Shown: one piece after another, positions 3,846 to 61,896 of the stretch
Position numbering within the stretch: the first letter of the stretch is position 1
Layout: each line of letters begins with the position of its first letter
Source: Dethiosulfovibrio peptidovorans DSM 11002
GTDB taxonomy: Bacteria > Synergistota > Synergistia > Synergistales > Dethiosulfovibrionaceae
DNA: 64,000 nt
Direction: 5' to 3'
NCBI RefSeq assembly: GCF_000172975.1
Contig: NZ_ABTR02000001.1
Coordinates: 2,456,501 to 2,520,500, forward strand
The notes under the pieces: generated by a model
What the model saw: the letters and a program-made list of their open reading frames with translations, nothing else
Told to the model about the DNA's origin: nothing
The model's database searches: none
Position numbers and translations under genes: made by a program

Positions 3846-4005
3846 ATAGAAAAAACACCTCACAGATAGAAAGAGCGCCCCCTAAAGGGCCCGTTTCGCT
3901 CCCCCCGAAAGAGGGACCCGAACCAGACTATGATATCAGAGACGGGACAAAACCGCACCGTCTCAGGTAGAAGCCCATCTGAAACGTAGTCCTCCATCGA
4001 GTCTC

Positions 4006-4201
4006 CTCAGAGAGGTCGTTCCGGCGGAGCCCATTCGAGCCCGTATTCCCGACCTGCCGTCGTGTAGTACGAATGGGGCGACAGGACGTCGCCCCAAGCC
4101 GAGGGGGCACAGGACGTGCCCTCCGAGGCGGTCTGTACGAAACAGGCAGGTCGGGAATACGTTCGGGCGAGACAGGGCGGAGCCGGAACGACCTCTCCGA
4201 G
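4006..4201. repeat. Long interrupted inverted repeat with twin AGGAC-loop hairpins
   Basis: Outer arms at 4006-4025 and 4182-4201 pair over 20 bp with one mismatch. Inner arms at 4042-4058 and 4145-4161 pair perfectly over 17 bp. Inside are two tandem hairpins, 4075-4082/4088-4095 and 4105-4110/4116-4121, each presenting the same loop AGGAC within the identical nonamer ACAGGACGT. The whole can fold as one long branched stem in RNA or as a cruciform. It ends 45 bp upstream of the purC -35 box, so it is outside the predicted purC transcript. It could be an independent RNA, a lepA leader read on the minus strand, or a palindromic repeat element. Confidence 0.75.
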
Positions 4202-4245
4202 AAGTGACGTACTTTAAAGATGCCCTGTACCGGCCCCTCTTATAG

Positions 4246-4274
4246 TTGACATTTATAGACCTCAAGGTGATAAT
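4246..4274 (+). promoter_or_regulatory. Sigma-70-type promoter of the pur operon
   Basis: TTGACA at 4246-4251, a 17-bp spacer and GATAAT at 4269-4274 form a near-consensus promoter. The expected transcription start is about 4281, leaving a leader of only about 25 bases before the purC ATG, with GGGAGG at 4290-4295 as ribosome binding site. A leader this short leaves no room for a purine riboswitch, so control would have to act at the promoter. Confidence 0.8.
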
Positions 4275-20918: not shown

Positions 20919-21387
20919 CCTTAAAATCGACGCCAAATTAGTCACTCGGCTCCTCCCATGCTTTTAAAAGTCTGAAGCCGTGTTCAGAAATAACATATTT
21001 CTGGTTGCTGGCCTTGGGATTTTCAGGGTTTGTCATTTGGATCAGTTTTTCTGACAATAATTTCTCAAGACTACGCTTGAAATTACCGGTCCTGGATTTA
21101 TAACCAGCGGCTTTAGTGAGTTCCCTGGCTGATTTCTCATCTTCCACTAATGCAAACAAAATTTTTCGCTCAGTAGATGTCAGGCTTACATGGGCCTCGA
21201 CTTGGACCTCTTGTTCCTCAACTTGGGCCTCGACTTGGGTCTCGGCCTGAAATCTCTGTCTCATAACGGGTGTCAGTTCAAAGAGGCTATCTGCCAGTTT
21301 TACCAGCAAAACCTGATTAACCAGCTGATTTGCCACATCAGTACAGGTGGAGACAGGCTTGGGCACCTCTAGCAACCCCATATTTAG

Positions 21388-22634
21388 CGGTCTGAGCAGA
21401 CAAAAAAGCCACAGACCAGAAACAGCGACAAATTAGGCTAAATCAGCGTTAAGATGATTCTCTTTTGTCGCTCCGGTGACCGTAACAACTCGGCTTTTAC
21501 CGTCATTTGGGTACAGAACACAGAGCTCCTGACTTCATCATCAGGAACGAGAATCGAACGATGTTATAGGCCAGGTTTCTCAGTCCTATAGCGGTTGAAG
21601 CTCTGGCTTTCCCGATAGTTCGAACTATCAGGTTGCCGGCCTTCATGGTTTGGGCTCCAAAGACGTGCTCCACTCGGCTTCGGACTTTGGATCTTGTTCT
21701 GTTACCCTGTCTTTCCCACCATGTGATGGGTTTGCCTCTGTATCCTTTTCGTTGGATCTTCGGTCTGTAGCCTCGTTCCTCAAGCCAGGAGATTTTCTCA
21801 TGGCTTCTATAAGCTGAGTCGGCATAGACGTCCTTGCTGCTGTTACTGGGATCGATGAGTTCCTCGAATACGTTGCTGTCGTGGACCGATGCCTCGGTTA
21901 CGCTGTATTTACGGATGATCTTGTTCTGAGAGTCGATCTCTATGTGGTTCTTGTAGCCGAAGGAGCTTTTGCCGTTTTTCTTCGTCCACCTGGCATCGGT
22001 GTCTTTTTGAGATCTCTTGTTGTCGGGCCAGTCTTCCGGTGGTTCTCCATCCTTGATCTTGCGGTTTTCATCCCGTTTGTTCCTCTGGATCGGGACCTTC
22101 ACTATGGAGGCATCCACTATCTGGCCTTTTTTTGCCTTGAAGCCGCTTTTACGGATGTGACCGTCAAAAAGATCGAACAGAGGCTTCATCAGTTCCGCCT
22201 TGGTCAGCTGCTCCCTAAAAAGCCATATAGTCTTGGCATCAGGGACTTTGGCTTCCAGGGAGAGGCCGAGAAAACGTCTGAAGGAAAGCCTGTCCCTTAC
22301 CTGGAACTCCATTGCGTCGTCCGACAGGTTGTACAGTGCCTGAAGCACCAGGATCTTGAACATGAGAAGAGGAGGGAAGGGCTTTCTTCCTCCCAGAGAA
22401 TCCTTCTGTCTGAGCCCTTCGCGGAAGTCCTTCAACGGCTGCTCGAAGATGGACCAGTCCACCGCTTTCTCTATTCGTACCAGTGGATCGTTCACCTTTT
22501 CAAGGCTATCGTAGGCTATTTCTTCCGCAAAGAGGCTCCGCTGTTTCAAGGGGATCCCATCCCTTCTCGAGAATTTTTGGTTACAACCGGTATTTTAACA
22601 TCCCAGCCTAAACAGGGGTTTTTCTCCCTGCCAG
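21388..22634 (-). mobile_element. IS5-family insertion sequence with 4-bp CTAA target duplication
   Basis: About 1247 bp lie between two TTAG copies (plus strand) at 21384-21387 and 22635-22638, the YTAR-type 4-bp duplication known for many IS5-family elements. The termini (CGGTCTGAGCAGAC at the left, CTGGCAGGGAGA reading inward at the right) are only weakly inverted. The boundaries are fixed mainly because removing the element plus one TTAG rejoins the host reading frame exactly. The element carries a single transposase gene oriented with the BREX operon. Confidence 0.85.
21503..22549 (-). CDS. IS5-family DDE transposase
   Basis: An uninterrupted 348-residue transposase. The N-terminal segment (FREGLRQKDSLGGRKPFPP then MFKILVLQALYNLSDD) is the usual IS5 DNA-binding part. 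The catalytic domain has IVDASIVKVP (first Asp), VYADSAYRSHE (second Asp) and RVEHVFG with the DDE glutamate in the Y-R-E signature. It appears intact, so the insertion may be fairly recent. It lies inside the broken AlbA_2 gene, on the same strand as the flanking BREX genes, and could be polar on brxHII-pglZ-brxA unless transcription reads through. Confidence 0.93.
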   Translation of the reverse strand: MKQRSLFAEEIAYDSLEKVNDPLVRIEKAVDWSIFEQPLKDFREGLRQKDSLGGRKPFPPLLMFKILVLQALYNLSDDAMEFQVRDRLSFRRFLGLSLEAKVPDAKTIWLFREQLTKAELMKPLFDLFDGHIRKSGFKAKKGQIVDASIVKVPIQRNKRDENRKIKDGEPPEDWPDNKRSQKDTDARWTKKNGKSSFGYKNHIEIDSQNKIIRKYSVTEASVHDSNVFEELIDPSNSSKDVYADSAYRSHEKISWLEERGYRPKIQRKGYRGKPITWWERQGNRTRSKVRSRVEHVFGAQTMKAGNLIVRTIGKARASTAIGLRNLAYNIVRFSFLMMKSGALCSVPK

Positions 22635-24015
22635 TTAGGGGAGTTTTTAGAGATGCCCGCTTGTTAATGACAGCTCTTATTTCACTCAGAGAAAACGGTG
22701 TAAACTTTTTACATGCAAATGCAAACACAGCGGCGTTCATCTTCAGAGAGATGAACGCCGATAGCTTCTTGGAACTTTCGTTGATATCTTGAAATCAATA
22801 TTTCCTTTTTTAAAATAAGTTCGAAAGATTTCTTTGGTTTATCATTGATAATCTCGGGAGGAACATGACCCAATCCCCGCCATGACTTGAACACATCACG
22901 CAAACCCCAACCAGCGTTTTCACTGAATCCTATTCGCCTGAAAGCACTGACAATCAGTGGATTTCTTGTCTCTTTTTCACCGGGATCGAGTAAATCTTCG
23001 AGTGAAGCAAACGCATCACCCGGATTCCAGAAGCGGGTTAAATCAGAAAAATGCTGAATAACAGGCTTGCGGACATGATCCGAGTAATCCTGATGAATCA
23101 ACATATTTACAATTGCTTCACGGAAAGGAATGTAGTCAACAGGCTGGTCCTTCCGCTGCATGGTTCCGGGATCAAGTTCAAAAGGAATTTCTGCAAAGCG
23201 ATAATACCATTCCATGATTGAGGCCCAAGTCTGCATAAGATTGTAATCGCAAACGGTCCGATCATGCCAGCGCTCAATACCGATGGCATCGGACTTATAG
23301 AGATAACGCTGGCAGTCAATAATCGGCCTTGGCAGAAAACCTCTCAGATAGCCATCCTGACCAAATAGAAGTATGGAAGCAACGGTTGGTTTTCGACCCG
23401 ATTCAGTCTCTTTAATCAAGCCAAATTGAAACAAAAACTCTTCATCATCTAAATCAGCATAACTTCGTGTTCCAGTTTTTTCTTCATATTGGCGACGATA
23501 CCAGGCAATATCCTTTGAGTTGAAGCATTTACCGATATCATAATCAACTGTGCCGCCATCATATCGATCTTTTGACGCATCGCTCAGCAGGCGTTTCAAT
23601 TCTGCATCAGAGCATTTGACGTCACATGCACCTTTGCGGAGAAAGCTTCTTTTCATATCACCACTCAGGTAAACTGGCTTTTCAGAACGATTTGCTTCCG
23701 GGATATAAAAAATGAGCAGGTCTTTTTCCGAAACCGTTTTCAGGTCCTCTTTTACATCGATGATACAACTGATTTTGTCCTTTTGCCTTAGAGCTGTAAT
23801 GAAATCGTTCTGAACCTTATCTACATCTATGACTCCAACAACTTTGAAGTTAGAACCGTCTTTTTTTACACCAAAAACAAGGTGCCCACCTTCAGTATTA
23901 GCAAAGGCAGAGACAGATTCATAAGCACTCTTAGGAACTGCTGTTTGGGCTTCCTTAAACTCAACGTCCTTCCACTCATGCTGATTAAGAAGATCAAAAA
24001 TTTCTTGTTCCGTCA

Positions 24016-26862
24016 TTACTCGTCTCCCACCCGTGTAACCGCTTGGTCGTACCACATTAGCAGCTTGGGATCTTCCTCAAGTACGTTGTTCGGGATTTTT
24101 TCGGCAACGGTGATAATCACTTTATAGTCCCGTTCCTGCCACGCTTTCTTGAATCCGGCGCGAACCGCCTCAAGCCGAAATATTTTGAGCTTCTTTTTGG
24201 CCTGCTTGTATTCTTCAAACTCTTTCAAGAGGGCTTTTTCGCGCAGTTTTTCAAGATCCCCCGCTTTGTTAGGATCGGGCACATACCAGCGATTTTTGGC
24301 TTTGGCGACCAACGCCGGATCCTCTTTCGGCAGATTACGCATGTCCTTCCAGTTACTGGAGAGGTAGCTGTGGATTTGATCAGGAACGGGACCTTTGCCA
24401 TCGTATGCCAGGAAGTTCTGCTCCAACAGTGTGGAGAGCTCCAGGCCCACCTCGTTTTTACTCCAGCCACCAATCTCCTTCATAAAGAGTGGATTGATAT
24501 CCTGAAAACTCTGTGGCTTGTCACGTAACAGACTGCGAAGCCATTCGATGGCCGATGCTTCATCGGAAATAAACAGCGACTGCTGTAGTGGTCTTCCGCC
24601 ACCGATCATCTTCTTACGGTCGTATTCCGCCACCTGTTCCGGCAGGAAGTACATGCCATCACGCTCGGCGAAACGTTGCGATAAGCCAAGCTGAAAATCT
24701 TGGCTGTCGATGGGAACGTTGTAGCCTTTACGCACGTAATAGGCTATAACCTGATCGTAAAGGATGCGTGGGTCACGTTCAGGTATTGCGACGAGATCAT
24801 AGCCTTGTTTTTTGATTACTGGTAGATATTTCAAGTGAGTTCGAATAAAATCCCAGACACCCTCTTCAGATTTAGCCTCTTCCTCGAACCTATCTTCAAA
24901 GCCACCATTAGGTTTATAAGCTGAGATAACAAGGTCTTGTTTAACCGCTGTTAGAGTTGTTACAGCCTTAAAGCTCCCTTGTTTCTTATCGAGGGCCGAA
25001 ACGTTTGCTACAATAAATCCAGCTTCAGTAAGGGCTGTTTGGATACTACTCCAAACCGATGCTTTGGTGTTTGAAAACTCAACCGTCATCCAGCGACCAG
25101 GCTTTAGCACTCGGTAAGCTTCTTTGAAGCAACCAGCCATTAGATTTCGATACTCTGTAGCGCCCTTGCCTTGAACAGAGTTTTCAATAGCCTCTGGCTT
25201 GTTATTCGTCCATACTTTTAACCATGATTCCCAAATGAAGCTAAGCTCTGAATAATTGAGATTGGCTCCGAAAGGTGGATCCGTAAAGATGTAATCCACA
25301 CTGTTGTTGTTATAATCAATCCAATTAGCGGAACTCGTTGAAAGCGGGTGCCTCAAGAAGTTCGCAAATAATTTTTTTTTGCGAATATTCTTATTGAATA
25401 CGTCCACTGCAGAGACCAATACTGAAATTTCTTTAATCAAAGATGGAATGTATAATGTTCCTGCCATTGGGCCACCCCCAGCACCCGCTATTCCACCCGC
25501 CCATCTATATCTATAGAGTTTTGTTAACGTCCACCACATAGCAAGTTGACTAATCAAAAAACTTGAAGAGCTTCTTATTCTAACAGCAGCTAACACACAT
25601 AAATTTCTTTTTGTATAGAAATGATGCACATGGGTGATACCAGCAGGATCATTGCGGCGGGTTTCTTTTCCTTTCATCATTCGATAATTTGGAAACCAGT
25701 AATGGATTTCGCTGTTTTCAATTTTCTCAATCAGTGTTAAATCGTTCTTATCCGGACTTTTTTCAAAACGACCACGCTTGCCTTCTATCGAATAATTAAT
25801 AAGAACGGGCACTTGCTTTGCCTGTTTAACAGAATTATTCAGGGCGGAATCAAAATTCGTTGTCCAGGCACGTTCCATTTTTCGTTTAGTTAATTCAGCG
25901 TGACAATGTGGACATGGGAAAGAGTCTCTAACTTTTCCTGCTTCTTTATCGACCGCGGCATCCCAAAACACAACCTCACCAGTACATTCAGGGCAAACGA
26001 ACACATCACTCCACACAGTATAATTAATCTTGCCTTTCGTCTTACCGTCAGTATGAAGTGTTTCATACATCCAGCCGCATTCCTCTTCCACTTCAGCGAG
26101 AATACGTTTTGCCTCCCTCTCAAATGCATGAACATCAACCGGTGTGTTGTAGTTGTAAGCGATAAAGGTAGCCGCAGGAGACAGGTCATTTAACACGGCC
26201 TTGCGAGCGCCGAGTTTTGAGAAGCGTTTCCATACTTTTTTGCCATCCTCATCAGTCTCTTCCTGAAGAATAGTGCCATCTGGTTTCACTTGATAACCAA
26301 GCGACGTGACCACATCCCGATCACCACACATCTGGGCAGCCACACCTGTCATACCGGTTCCACAGAAACCATCAAAAACAATGTCCCCCGGTTCTGTGTA
26401 ATGCAGGATGTAGCGCATAATTGCTTTGTGCGGCACCTTGGTATGATAAGAGTGGGCGTTATAAATGGGGTCATTTTTCCCCTCGCTGACATCGGCGGCA
26501 AAAGGCTCCCTGTGATAATGGTAGTCCGCTGGCTTTTCCGGCTTTTGGCTCTCCCATTCCTCAATAAACTGACCGATCCATGGGTTCGGGCAGGCTGTGT
26601 AATATGGCGGATCGCTCAGTTTTAGGATGTCCTCATCTTCACCGATCGGGAAGCCCTCAATCTTGCGGAATTCCGGATCCTGCAGTTTTTTGCGCAGTTC
26701 CTCCGTAAAGTGGGCACGCCTGGCGTCGTCGTTTTCAAATTCCAGACCAAGGCATTTCACCGGCCCATCATTCGCGGGAACAAGCTCTTCCTCAAAAAGG
26801 TTGCCGCTACCCAGTTTGCCGGGAATAAACTTTGTCTTAAATAATTTTTTTTGTTTATTCAT
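24016..26862 (-). CDS. pglX: BREX type 3 DNA methyltransferase (PglX-like)
   Basis: A 948-residue amino-methyltransferase. Motif IV-like SDPPYY lies near residue 84. The SAM-binding motif I is VFDGFCGTGMTG near 162-173. A zinc ribbon (CPEC then CPHC near 290-325) sits mid-protein, and a second DPPFGANL lies near 535. This Zn-ribbon methylase layout is the PglXI form of type 3 BREX, in which methylation marks host DNA and is needed for exclusion. No split or frameshift is seen. The stop overlaps the next ATG (TAATG). The recognition site cannot be read from sequence. Confidence 0.88.
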   Translation of the reverse strand: MNKQKKLFKTKFIPGKLGSGNLFEEELVPANDGPVKCLGLEFENDDARRAHFTEELRKKLQDPEFRKIEGFPIGEDEDILKLSDPPYYTACPNPWIGQFIEEWESQKPEKPADYHYHREPFAADVSEGKNDPIYNAHSYHTKVPHKAIMRYILHYTEPGDIVFDGFCGTGMTGVAAQMCGDRDVVTSLGYQVKPDGTILQEETDEDGKKVWKRFSKLGARKAVLNDLSPAATFIAYNYNTPVDVHAFEREAKRILAEVEEECGWMYETLHTDGKTKGKINYTVWSDVFVCPECTGEVVFWDAAVDKEAGKVRDSFPCPHCHAELTKRKMERAWTTNFDSALNNSVKQAKQVPVLINYSIEGKRGRFEKSPDKNDLTLIEKIENSEIHYWFPNYRMMKGKETRRNDPAGITHVHHFYTKRNLCVLAAVRIRSSSSFLISQLAMWWTLTKLYRYRWAGGIAGAGGGPMAGTLYIPSLIKEISVLVSAVDVFNKNIRKKKLFANFLRHPLSTSSANWIDYNNNSVDYIFTDPPFGANLNYSELSFIWESWLKVWTNNKPEAIENSVQGKGATEYRNLMAGCFKEAYRVLKPGRWMTVEFSNTKASVWSSIQTALTEAGFIVANVSALDKKQGSFKAVTTLTAVKQDLVISAYKPNGGFEDRFEEEAKSEEGVWDFIRTHLKYLPVIKKQGYDLVAIPERDPRILYDQVIAYYVRKGYNVPIDSQDFQLGLSQRFAERDGMYFLPEQVAEYDRKKMIGGGRPLQQSLFISDEASAIEWLRSLLRDKPQSFQDINPLFMKEIGGWSKNEVGLELSTLLEQNFLAYDGKGPVPDQIHSYLSSNWKDMRNLPKEDPALVAKAKNRWYVPDPNKAGDLEKLREKALLKEFEEYKQAKKKLKIFRLEAVRAGFKKAWQERDYKVIITVAEKIPNNVLEEDPKLLMWYDQAVTRVGDE

Positions 26863-61774: not shown

Positions 61775-61896
61775 GCTCCCTACAGGAGACCCAGGTGGCC
61801 GTGGCACCCAAGGGACACCGCTTACCGCTGCTTCCTTCCGGACCTGACGGGGTTCACGGGCTCTCGCCGCACGGGACTGGGCCCCCTGTAGGGAGC
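61775..61896 (-). ncRNA. ffs: Signal recognition particle RNA, small bacterial type
   Basis: The minus strand carries the SRP RNA core GTCAGGTCCGGAAGGAAGCA followed by GCGGTAAG, the conserved domain IV loops that bind Ffh. The flanking sequences (GGGGGCCCAGTCCC at the 5' side and CACCTGGGTCTCC at the 3' side) pair into the long single hairpin. The ends GCTCCCTACAGG and CCTGTAGGGAGC are exact complements. About 120 bases, the 4.5S class without an Alu domain. It is convergent with the CsoR-family gene. Confidence 0.95.

Follow-up and report, generated by a model that had tools for sequence, protein, structure and literature searches.

The branched inverted repeat that separates the divergent genes lepA and purC in Dethiosulfovibrio peptidovorans is a truncated copy of a MITE of approximately 250 bp, dozens of copies of which are found across the genus Dethiosulfovibrio. 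The copy occupies positions 4004-4226 (plus strand) of the 64,000-nucleotide stretch of DNA analysed here, referred to as the window. It represents a known kind of mobile element that harbors an unusual, conserved, RNA-like cargo, namely two neighboring hairpins with GGA in their loops. The explanation that accounts best for these observations, and which is held with considerable confidence, is that the MITE is mobilised by an IS5-family element, that its fold has been kept in the lineage of active copies, that the twin-GGA cargo has a putative CsrA-related role, and that the copy at this particular locus is a relic.

The fold itself is highly ordered. The repeat region (3990-4220) has an MFE of -139.9 kcal/mol, as compared to -88.3 +/- 4.9 kcal/mol for shuffled sequences (z -10.5), and none of 200 shuffles folded as well. 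Within the structure, an outer stem associates 4006-4025 with 4182-4201, while an inner stem of 17 bp, which is perfect, associates 4042-4058 with 4145-4161. These arms support hairpin 1 (4075-4095, loop AGGAC at 4083-4087) and hairpin 2 (4098-4129, loop AGGAC at 4111-4115), all features being given for the plus strand. The apices of the two hairpins are identical (ACAGGACGT), so that the repeat presents GGA at two loop sites, and the fold of hairpin 2 also includes a tandem G-A mismatch (4101-4102 / 4125-4126). The branched architecture described in the initial annotation is thus real, as are its inner stem and twin apices; its 20-bp outer stem is present as well, but is imperfect, with 19 pairs and one mismatch, and the element runs on beyond this stem to 4226.

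A BLAST search with positions 4000-4210 of the window against the D. peptidovorans genome (2,576,359 bases in three contigs) yielded 44 matches, including approximately 20 near-full copies, the best of which is 96% identical, and six congeneric genomes gave between 26 and 43 matches each. In total, 114 copies from the seven Dethiosulfovibrio genomes were collected; by a strict pattern, AGGAC is present in hairpin 1 of 96 of these copies and in hairpin 2 of 102. Alignment of the copies from D. peptidovorans with their flanks places the ends of the conserved unit at the terminal repeats GGGCATCTCTAAAAACT ... AGTTTTTAGAGATGCCC, and 89 copies display terminal inverted repeats consisting of GGGCATCTCTAAAAAC and its inverse. 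The modal length of these both-ended copies (n=89) is 250 bp, which is too short for a transposase gene. Identical 4-bp flanks border 39 of the 89, against a mean of 5.5 and a maximum of 12 in 500 shuffles, and in the same copies duplications of 2, 3 and 5-8 bp are at or below chance. The excess of 4-bp flanks, together with fixed termini, is the signature of transposition, and the family combines dispersed copies devoid of a transposase gene, terminal inverted repeats, a 4-bp target-site duplication and an empty insertion site (see below), as expected for a MITE. Among the possibilities raised from the sequence at the outset, that of a palindromic mobile element was correct, and the finding of many genomic copies, named at that time as a refutation of the structured-RNA reading, has been made; the suggestion of a new structured RNA does not hold, since the family already sits in Rfam.

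Several related loci deserve mention. Matches that consist of terminal repeats only were considered as potential ends of a larger autonomous element, a possibility that was rejected as they correspond to short deletion derivatives of roughly 50-120 bp with little beyond the termini and outer arms (L094:3888-3975, L097:3314-3430, L114:2044-2093 and L109:2184-2241). One congener, G006, carries an older, decayed subfamily with different loops (L052, L405-L433), as well as IS5-like relics. None of the papers searched deals with MITEs or insertion sequences in Dethiosulfovibrio; the genome of the D. peptidovorans strain SEBR 4207T was published as a permanent draft whose closure, according to its authors, was prevented by many repeats (PMC3035263).

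A candidate partner for the MITE is encoded within the same window. A pattern search for the MITE terminus located an IS5-family insertion sequence of 1298 bp (21361-22658, minus strand), flanked by the target-site duplication GCTT (21357-21360 and 22659-22662) and ending in GGGCACCTCTAGCAAC and the inverse of GGGCATCTCTAAAAAC. It carries a gene for an IS5-family transposase of 348 residues with a TTG start codon (21503-22549, minus strand; NF033581, 281.7 bits against a cut-off of 140; DDE_Tnp_1) and adjoins the 3' end of an ORF at 22709-24055 (minus strand). The genome holds eight full copies, 98-100% identical, of which seven have 4-bp target-site duplications, plus one partial copy. What the insertion sequence has in common with the MITE is the terminal 17-18 bases and the duplication length, while the internal sequence differs; since only the ends are common, the MITE cannot have arisen from the insertion sequence by simple internal deletion. 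From the matching termini and equal duplication length we infer that the resident IS5-family element is the likely source of transposase. Its enzyme would recognise the GGGCATCTCTAAAAAC termini of the 250-bp element, which has no transposase gene of its own, and would paste it into AT-rich 4-bp targets; the duplication of these targets is observed, and the enzyme responsible is presumably the IS5-family one. A DNA search for the insertion sequence in three congeners (G001, G002 and G004) found none, though MITE copies are numerous there, so that in these genomes the helper must have been a different transposase or one that has since died out. The element resembles other IS5-family MITEs in being shorter than 500 bp and gene-free, in sharing terminal inverted repeats and a 4-bp duplication with a resident IS5-family element, and in occurring as an intergenic palindrome in dozens of copies, but it differs from them in its sequence-conserved twin-hairpin core with CsrA-type loops.

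How the fold has evolved was addressed through a pairing analysis of 107 aligned copies and 74 pairs, in which 98.1% of the cells are paired. Double changes occur at 25 of the 74 pairs (255 cells), whereas slid controls gave 5-12 pairs and 9-40 cells; these cells are not independent events, and template switching from arm to arm could also yield paired changes. Compensatory changes are visible in both arms of the outer stem, and the left arm of the inner stem exists in three versions in relatives, with its partner changing to match. Compensation, whose absence in relatives had initially been named as an argument against a structured element, is hence abundant. By contrast, only 2 of 58 columns of the twin-hairpin core vary between subfamilies, versus 59 of the 140 columns outside it (Fisher P 6e-9; the two columns of a pair do not vary independently, yet a halved count would still contrast clearly). 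That the arms change in compensating pairs while the core is nearly fixed indicates that the fold matters to the element. Mutations private to single copies tell of the time after insertion, and of these the core shows only a mild deficit, with 31 in its 58 columns as compared to 115 in the other 140 (P 0.036). Purifying selection on GGA after insertion was also considered and rejected: the private mutation rate in GGA columns is not significantly below that of the rest (P 0.19), so that the data demonstrate no role for single loci. It seems from these comparisons that the core was selected in the source lineage and not locus by locus. The G006 copies, which are older and more diverged, mostly have the loops GGYGGAYG and AGGAG, and most keep GGA.

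These data bear directly on the most serious alternative, which retains the best explanation minus its RNA part and to which we assign somewhat less than an even chance. The hairpins would then act purely as DNA, either as an internal palindrome or cruciform that aids transposition, or as a structure whose pairing is kept by template switching between arms. The element is, after all, a DNA transposon, its private mutations look mostly neutral, and long palindromes can become homogenised between their arms in a manner that also generates paired changes. However, such processes sit poorly with the fact that the arms vary in pairs while the core, including the asymmetric GGA loops and the tandem G-A mismatch, is fixed between subfamilies, and with the retention of GGA in both loops of most of the diverged G006 copies despite altered neighbors. 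In the favored explanation of a mobilised MITE with RNA-like cargo, a long hairpin scaffold topped by the twin GGA-loop hairpins lies between the termini, and its fold has been kept among active copies, probably because the transcript, or single strand, either helps the element to spread or is one that the host tolerates; CsrA binding would be the most likely biochemical role of the hairpins.

A CsrA connection finds support in Rfam. Positions 4042-4161 (plus strand) match RF01731, TwoAYGGAY (Weinberg et al. 2010), which belongs to the clan of CsrA-binding RNAs (CL00106), with 48.8 bits against a gathering threshold of 43, and scores in congeners reach 60.4 bits. Members of this family have been proposed as CsrA-binding sRNAs, and a tandem G-A in a stem has been reported as a family trait (PMC4333381). 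The likeness involves a pair of neighboring hairpins with GGA loops that are carried by a long basal stem, a similar linker, AAG and then CGGU after hairpin 2, the tandem G-A in hairpin 2, and the multicopy nature of other carriers. Two AYGGAY loops characterise RF01731, but such hexaloops, sought in both loops, are absent here, and nearly all copies have AGGAC pentaloops (5 nt instead of 6); in addition, the element described here is bounded by IS5-type terminal inverted repeats and 4-bp duplications, and its host belongs to the Synergistota. The loop context CAGGACG nevertheless fits the CsrB repeat, CAGGA(U/A/C)G, a published account of which also describes the ANGGAN hexaloop as characteristic of high-affinity CsrA sites (PMC7652899), a feature that the AGGAC pentaloops do not have. 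The resemblance to CsrA/RsmA targets noted in the initial annotation is therefore supported by both the Rfam score and the heptamer; its remark that a base is lacking in the motif holds for the consensus from SELEX and RsmE, but not for the CsrB repeat, which is matched.

The host has the corresponding regulator. All seven Dethiosulfovibrio genomes encode csrA, and the protein of D. peptidovorans, examined over its full length, carries the RNA-binding residues, including the conserved arginine; its gene adjoins that for FliW, in a region (L404:730-1612) that opens with a flagellar hook-associated protein gene and where csrA lies directly 3' of the fliW-like gene. In seven genomes of two sister genera csrA is missing or below the cut-off, and the element is absent too, a co-occurrence across genera that is no more than suggestive. 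Beyond the genus, csrA was found in 15 of 18 genomes chosen by a TwoAYGGAY-like pattern, and was not found in a Clostridia MAG (G064), possibly incomplete, with 15 copies of the family. It is plausible that a twin-hairpin RNA would be bound by CsrA, in which case the transposon would be distributing binding sites for a global regulator.

A further possibility, which we consider unlikely, is that the repeat represents a multicopy, CsrA-sequestering sRNA gene similar to those of TwoAYGGAY, which would serve mainly to regulate the host. The above-threshold match to a family published as CsrA-binding sRNAs, the CsrB-like heptamer, the distribution of csrA and the strong conservation of the core between subfamilies would all agree with such a role. 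It is, however, difficult to reconcile with the pentaloops, with the almost neutral decay of copies after insertion and with the csrA-less Clostridia MAG; moreover, a scan of the window element found no sigma-70-like promoter or terminator, and no convincing orientation bias for transcription of the GGA strand was found. As regards the latter, 36 of 54 upstream genes have the element on their sense side, but of the 54 downstream genes 30 are oriented back towards it, and orientation was thus set aside as uninformative. The CsrB and RsmZ sRNAs likewise display GGA in loops, paired sites and the CAGGA(U/A/C)G heptamer; unlike them, the element has two sites only, lacks a recognizable promoter or terminator and is dispersed as a transposable element. 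An example of MITEs with an RNA product is provided by the QMITE1 and QMITE2 families of Coxiella, which have approximately 50 copies, some yielding sRNAs (PMC5896051); CsrA-type loops are not reported in that work, and sRNA expression has been shown in Coxiella.

The mobile nature of the element also has consequences for RF01731 as a whole, which Rfam classes as a cis-regulatory RNA and for which a role as CsrA-sequestering sRNAs has been proposed in the literature. Within Dethiosulfovibrio it lies inside an IS5-type MITE, and among outside-genus genomes, chosen by the TwoAYGGAY-like pattern, it is multicopy in several other lineages (39 matches in a Eubacterium genome, 32 in a Lachnospiraceae genome, 30 in a Psychromonas genome and 15 in the G064 MAG); annotations that count each match as a regulatory RNA are thus likely to be misleading. 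In the three outside-genus genomes that were inspected, the palindromes are longer than the part covered by the Rfam model, and some of them form inverted pairs at close distance. At loci L274, L287, L300 and L304-L343 of G061, G067 and G074, all from unrelated bacteria, RF01731 corresponds to a dispersed palindrome that reaches 39 copies in a single genome and is often arranged in inverted pairs about 120-340 bp apart. One could go further and propose that the whole TwoAYGGAY family consists of mobile palindromes with CsrA-binding RNA cargo, selfish elements that scatter decoys for CsrA, or control sites dependent on it, over genomes, the carrier being an IS5-type MITE here and unrelated repeats elsewhere; this joint proposal is tentative, and rather doubtful as it stands. 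Rfam matches in G018 and G035 were rejected as relatives; the G018 pair (L100:5672-7810), which the RF01731 model caught although it is apparently unrelated, consists of inverted 151-bp repeats, 98% identical and approximately 1.8 kb apart, with a gene between them.

At the lepA-purC site, the intergenic DNA of G001 and G005 is near-identical to that of D. peptidovorans but has no insert, and the insert is also absent from G002-G004, that is, from all five relatives aligned; judged from this comparison, the insertion is recent. Alignment with 18 copies from the same genome indicates that the window copy has lost about 28-30 bp at its left terminus, the junction falling in the short common stretch CGAGYCT, while the right terminal repeat (4210-4226, plus strand), recognised from aligned copies and the flanks of relatives, is the inverted form of GGGCATCTCTAAAAAC, with mismatches. 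Since the left end is missing, the copy is probably immobile now. The sequence at 3973 (GCCCATCTG) was considered as an eroded left terminal repeat and rejected, as this flank is shared by relatives that lack the insert. The native purC promoter (TTGACA-N17-GATAAT, 4246-4274, plus strand), also found in relatives that lack the element, lies downstream of it, in agreement with the initial placement of the repeat upstream of the pur promoter; a scan for a lepA promoter found none. The DNA that relatives share upstream of lepA does not extend as far as the insert, which is therefore most likely outside both transcripts. A leader acting in cis on lepA, as suggested early on, or on purC would fit the location of the repeat between the two divergent genes but is highly improbable, for the five aligned relatives keep both genes and the purC promoter without it, the sole promoter match is downstream of the element, and the loops have UCC and not GGA when read on the strand of lepA. 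Situated upstream of both the native purC promoter and a probable lepA promoter, the window copy would most likely be an immobile relic that neither gene needs for its expression.

Two minor observations concern the window itself. Between the right end of the element and native sequence lie 9-10 bases (4227-4236, TGTACCGGC) that are without counterpart in relatives and are unexplained. Towards the far end, a bacterial small SRP RNA is recognised on the minus strand (61785-61883, 68.6 bits).
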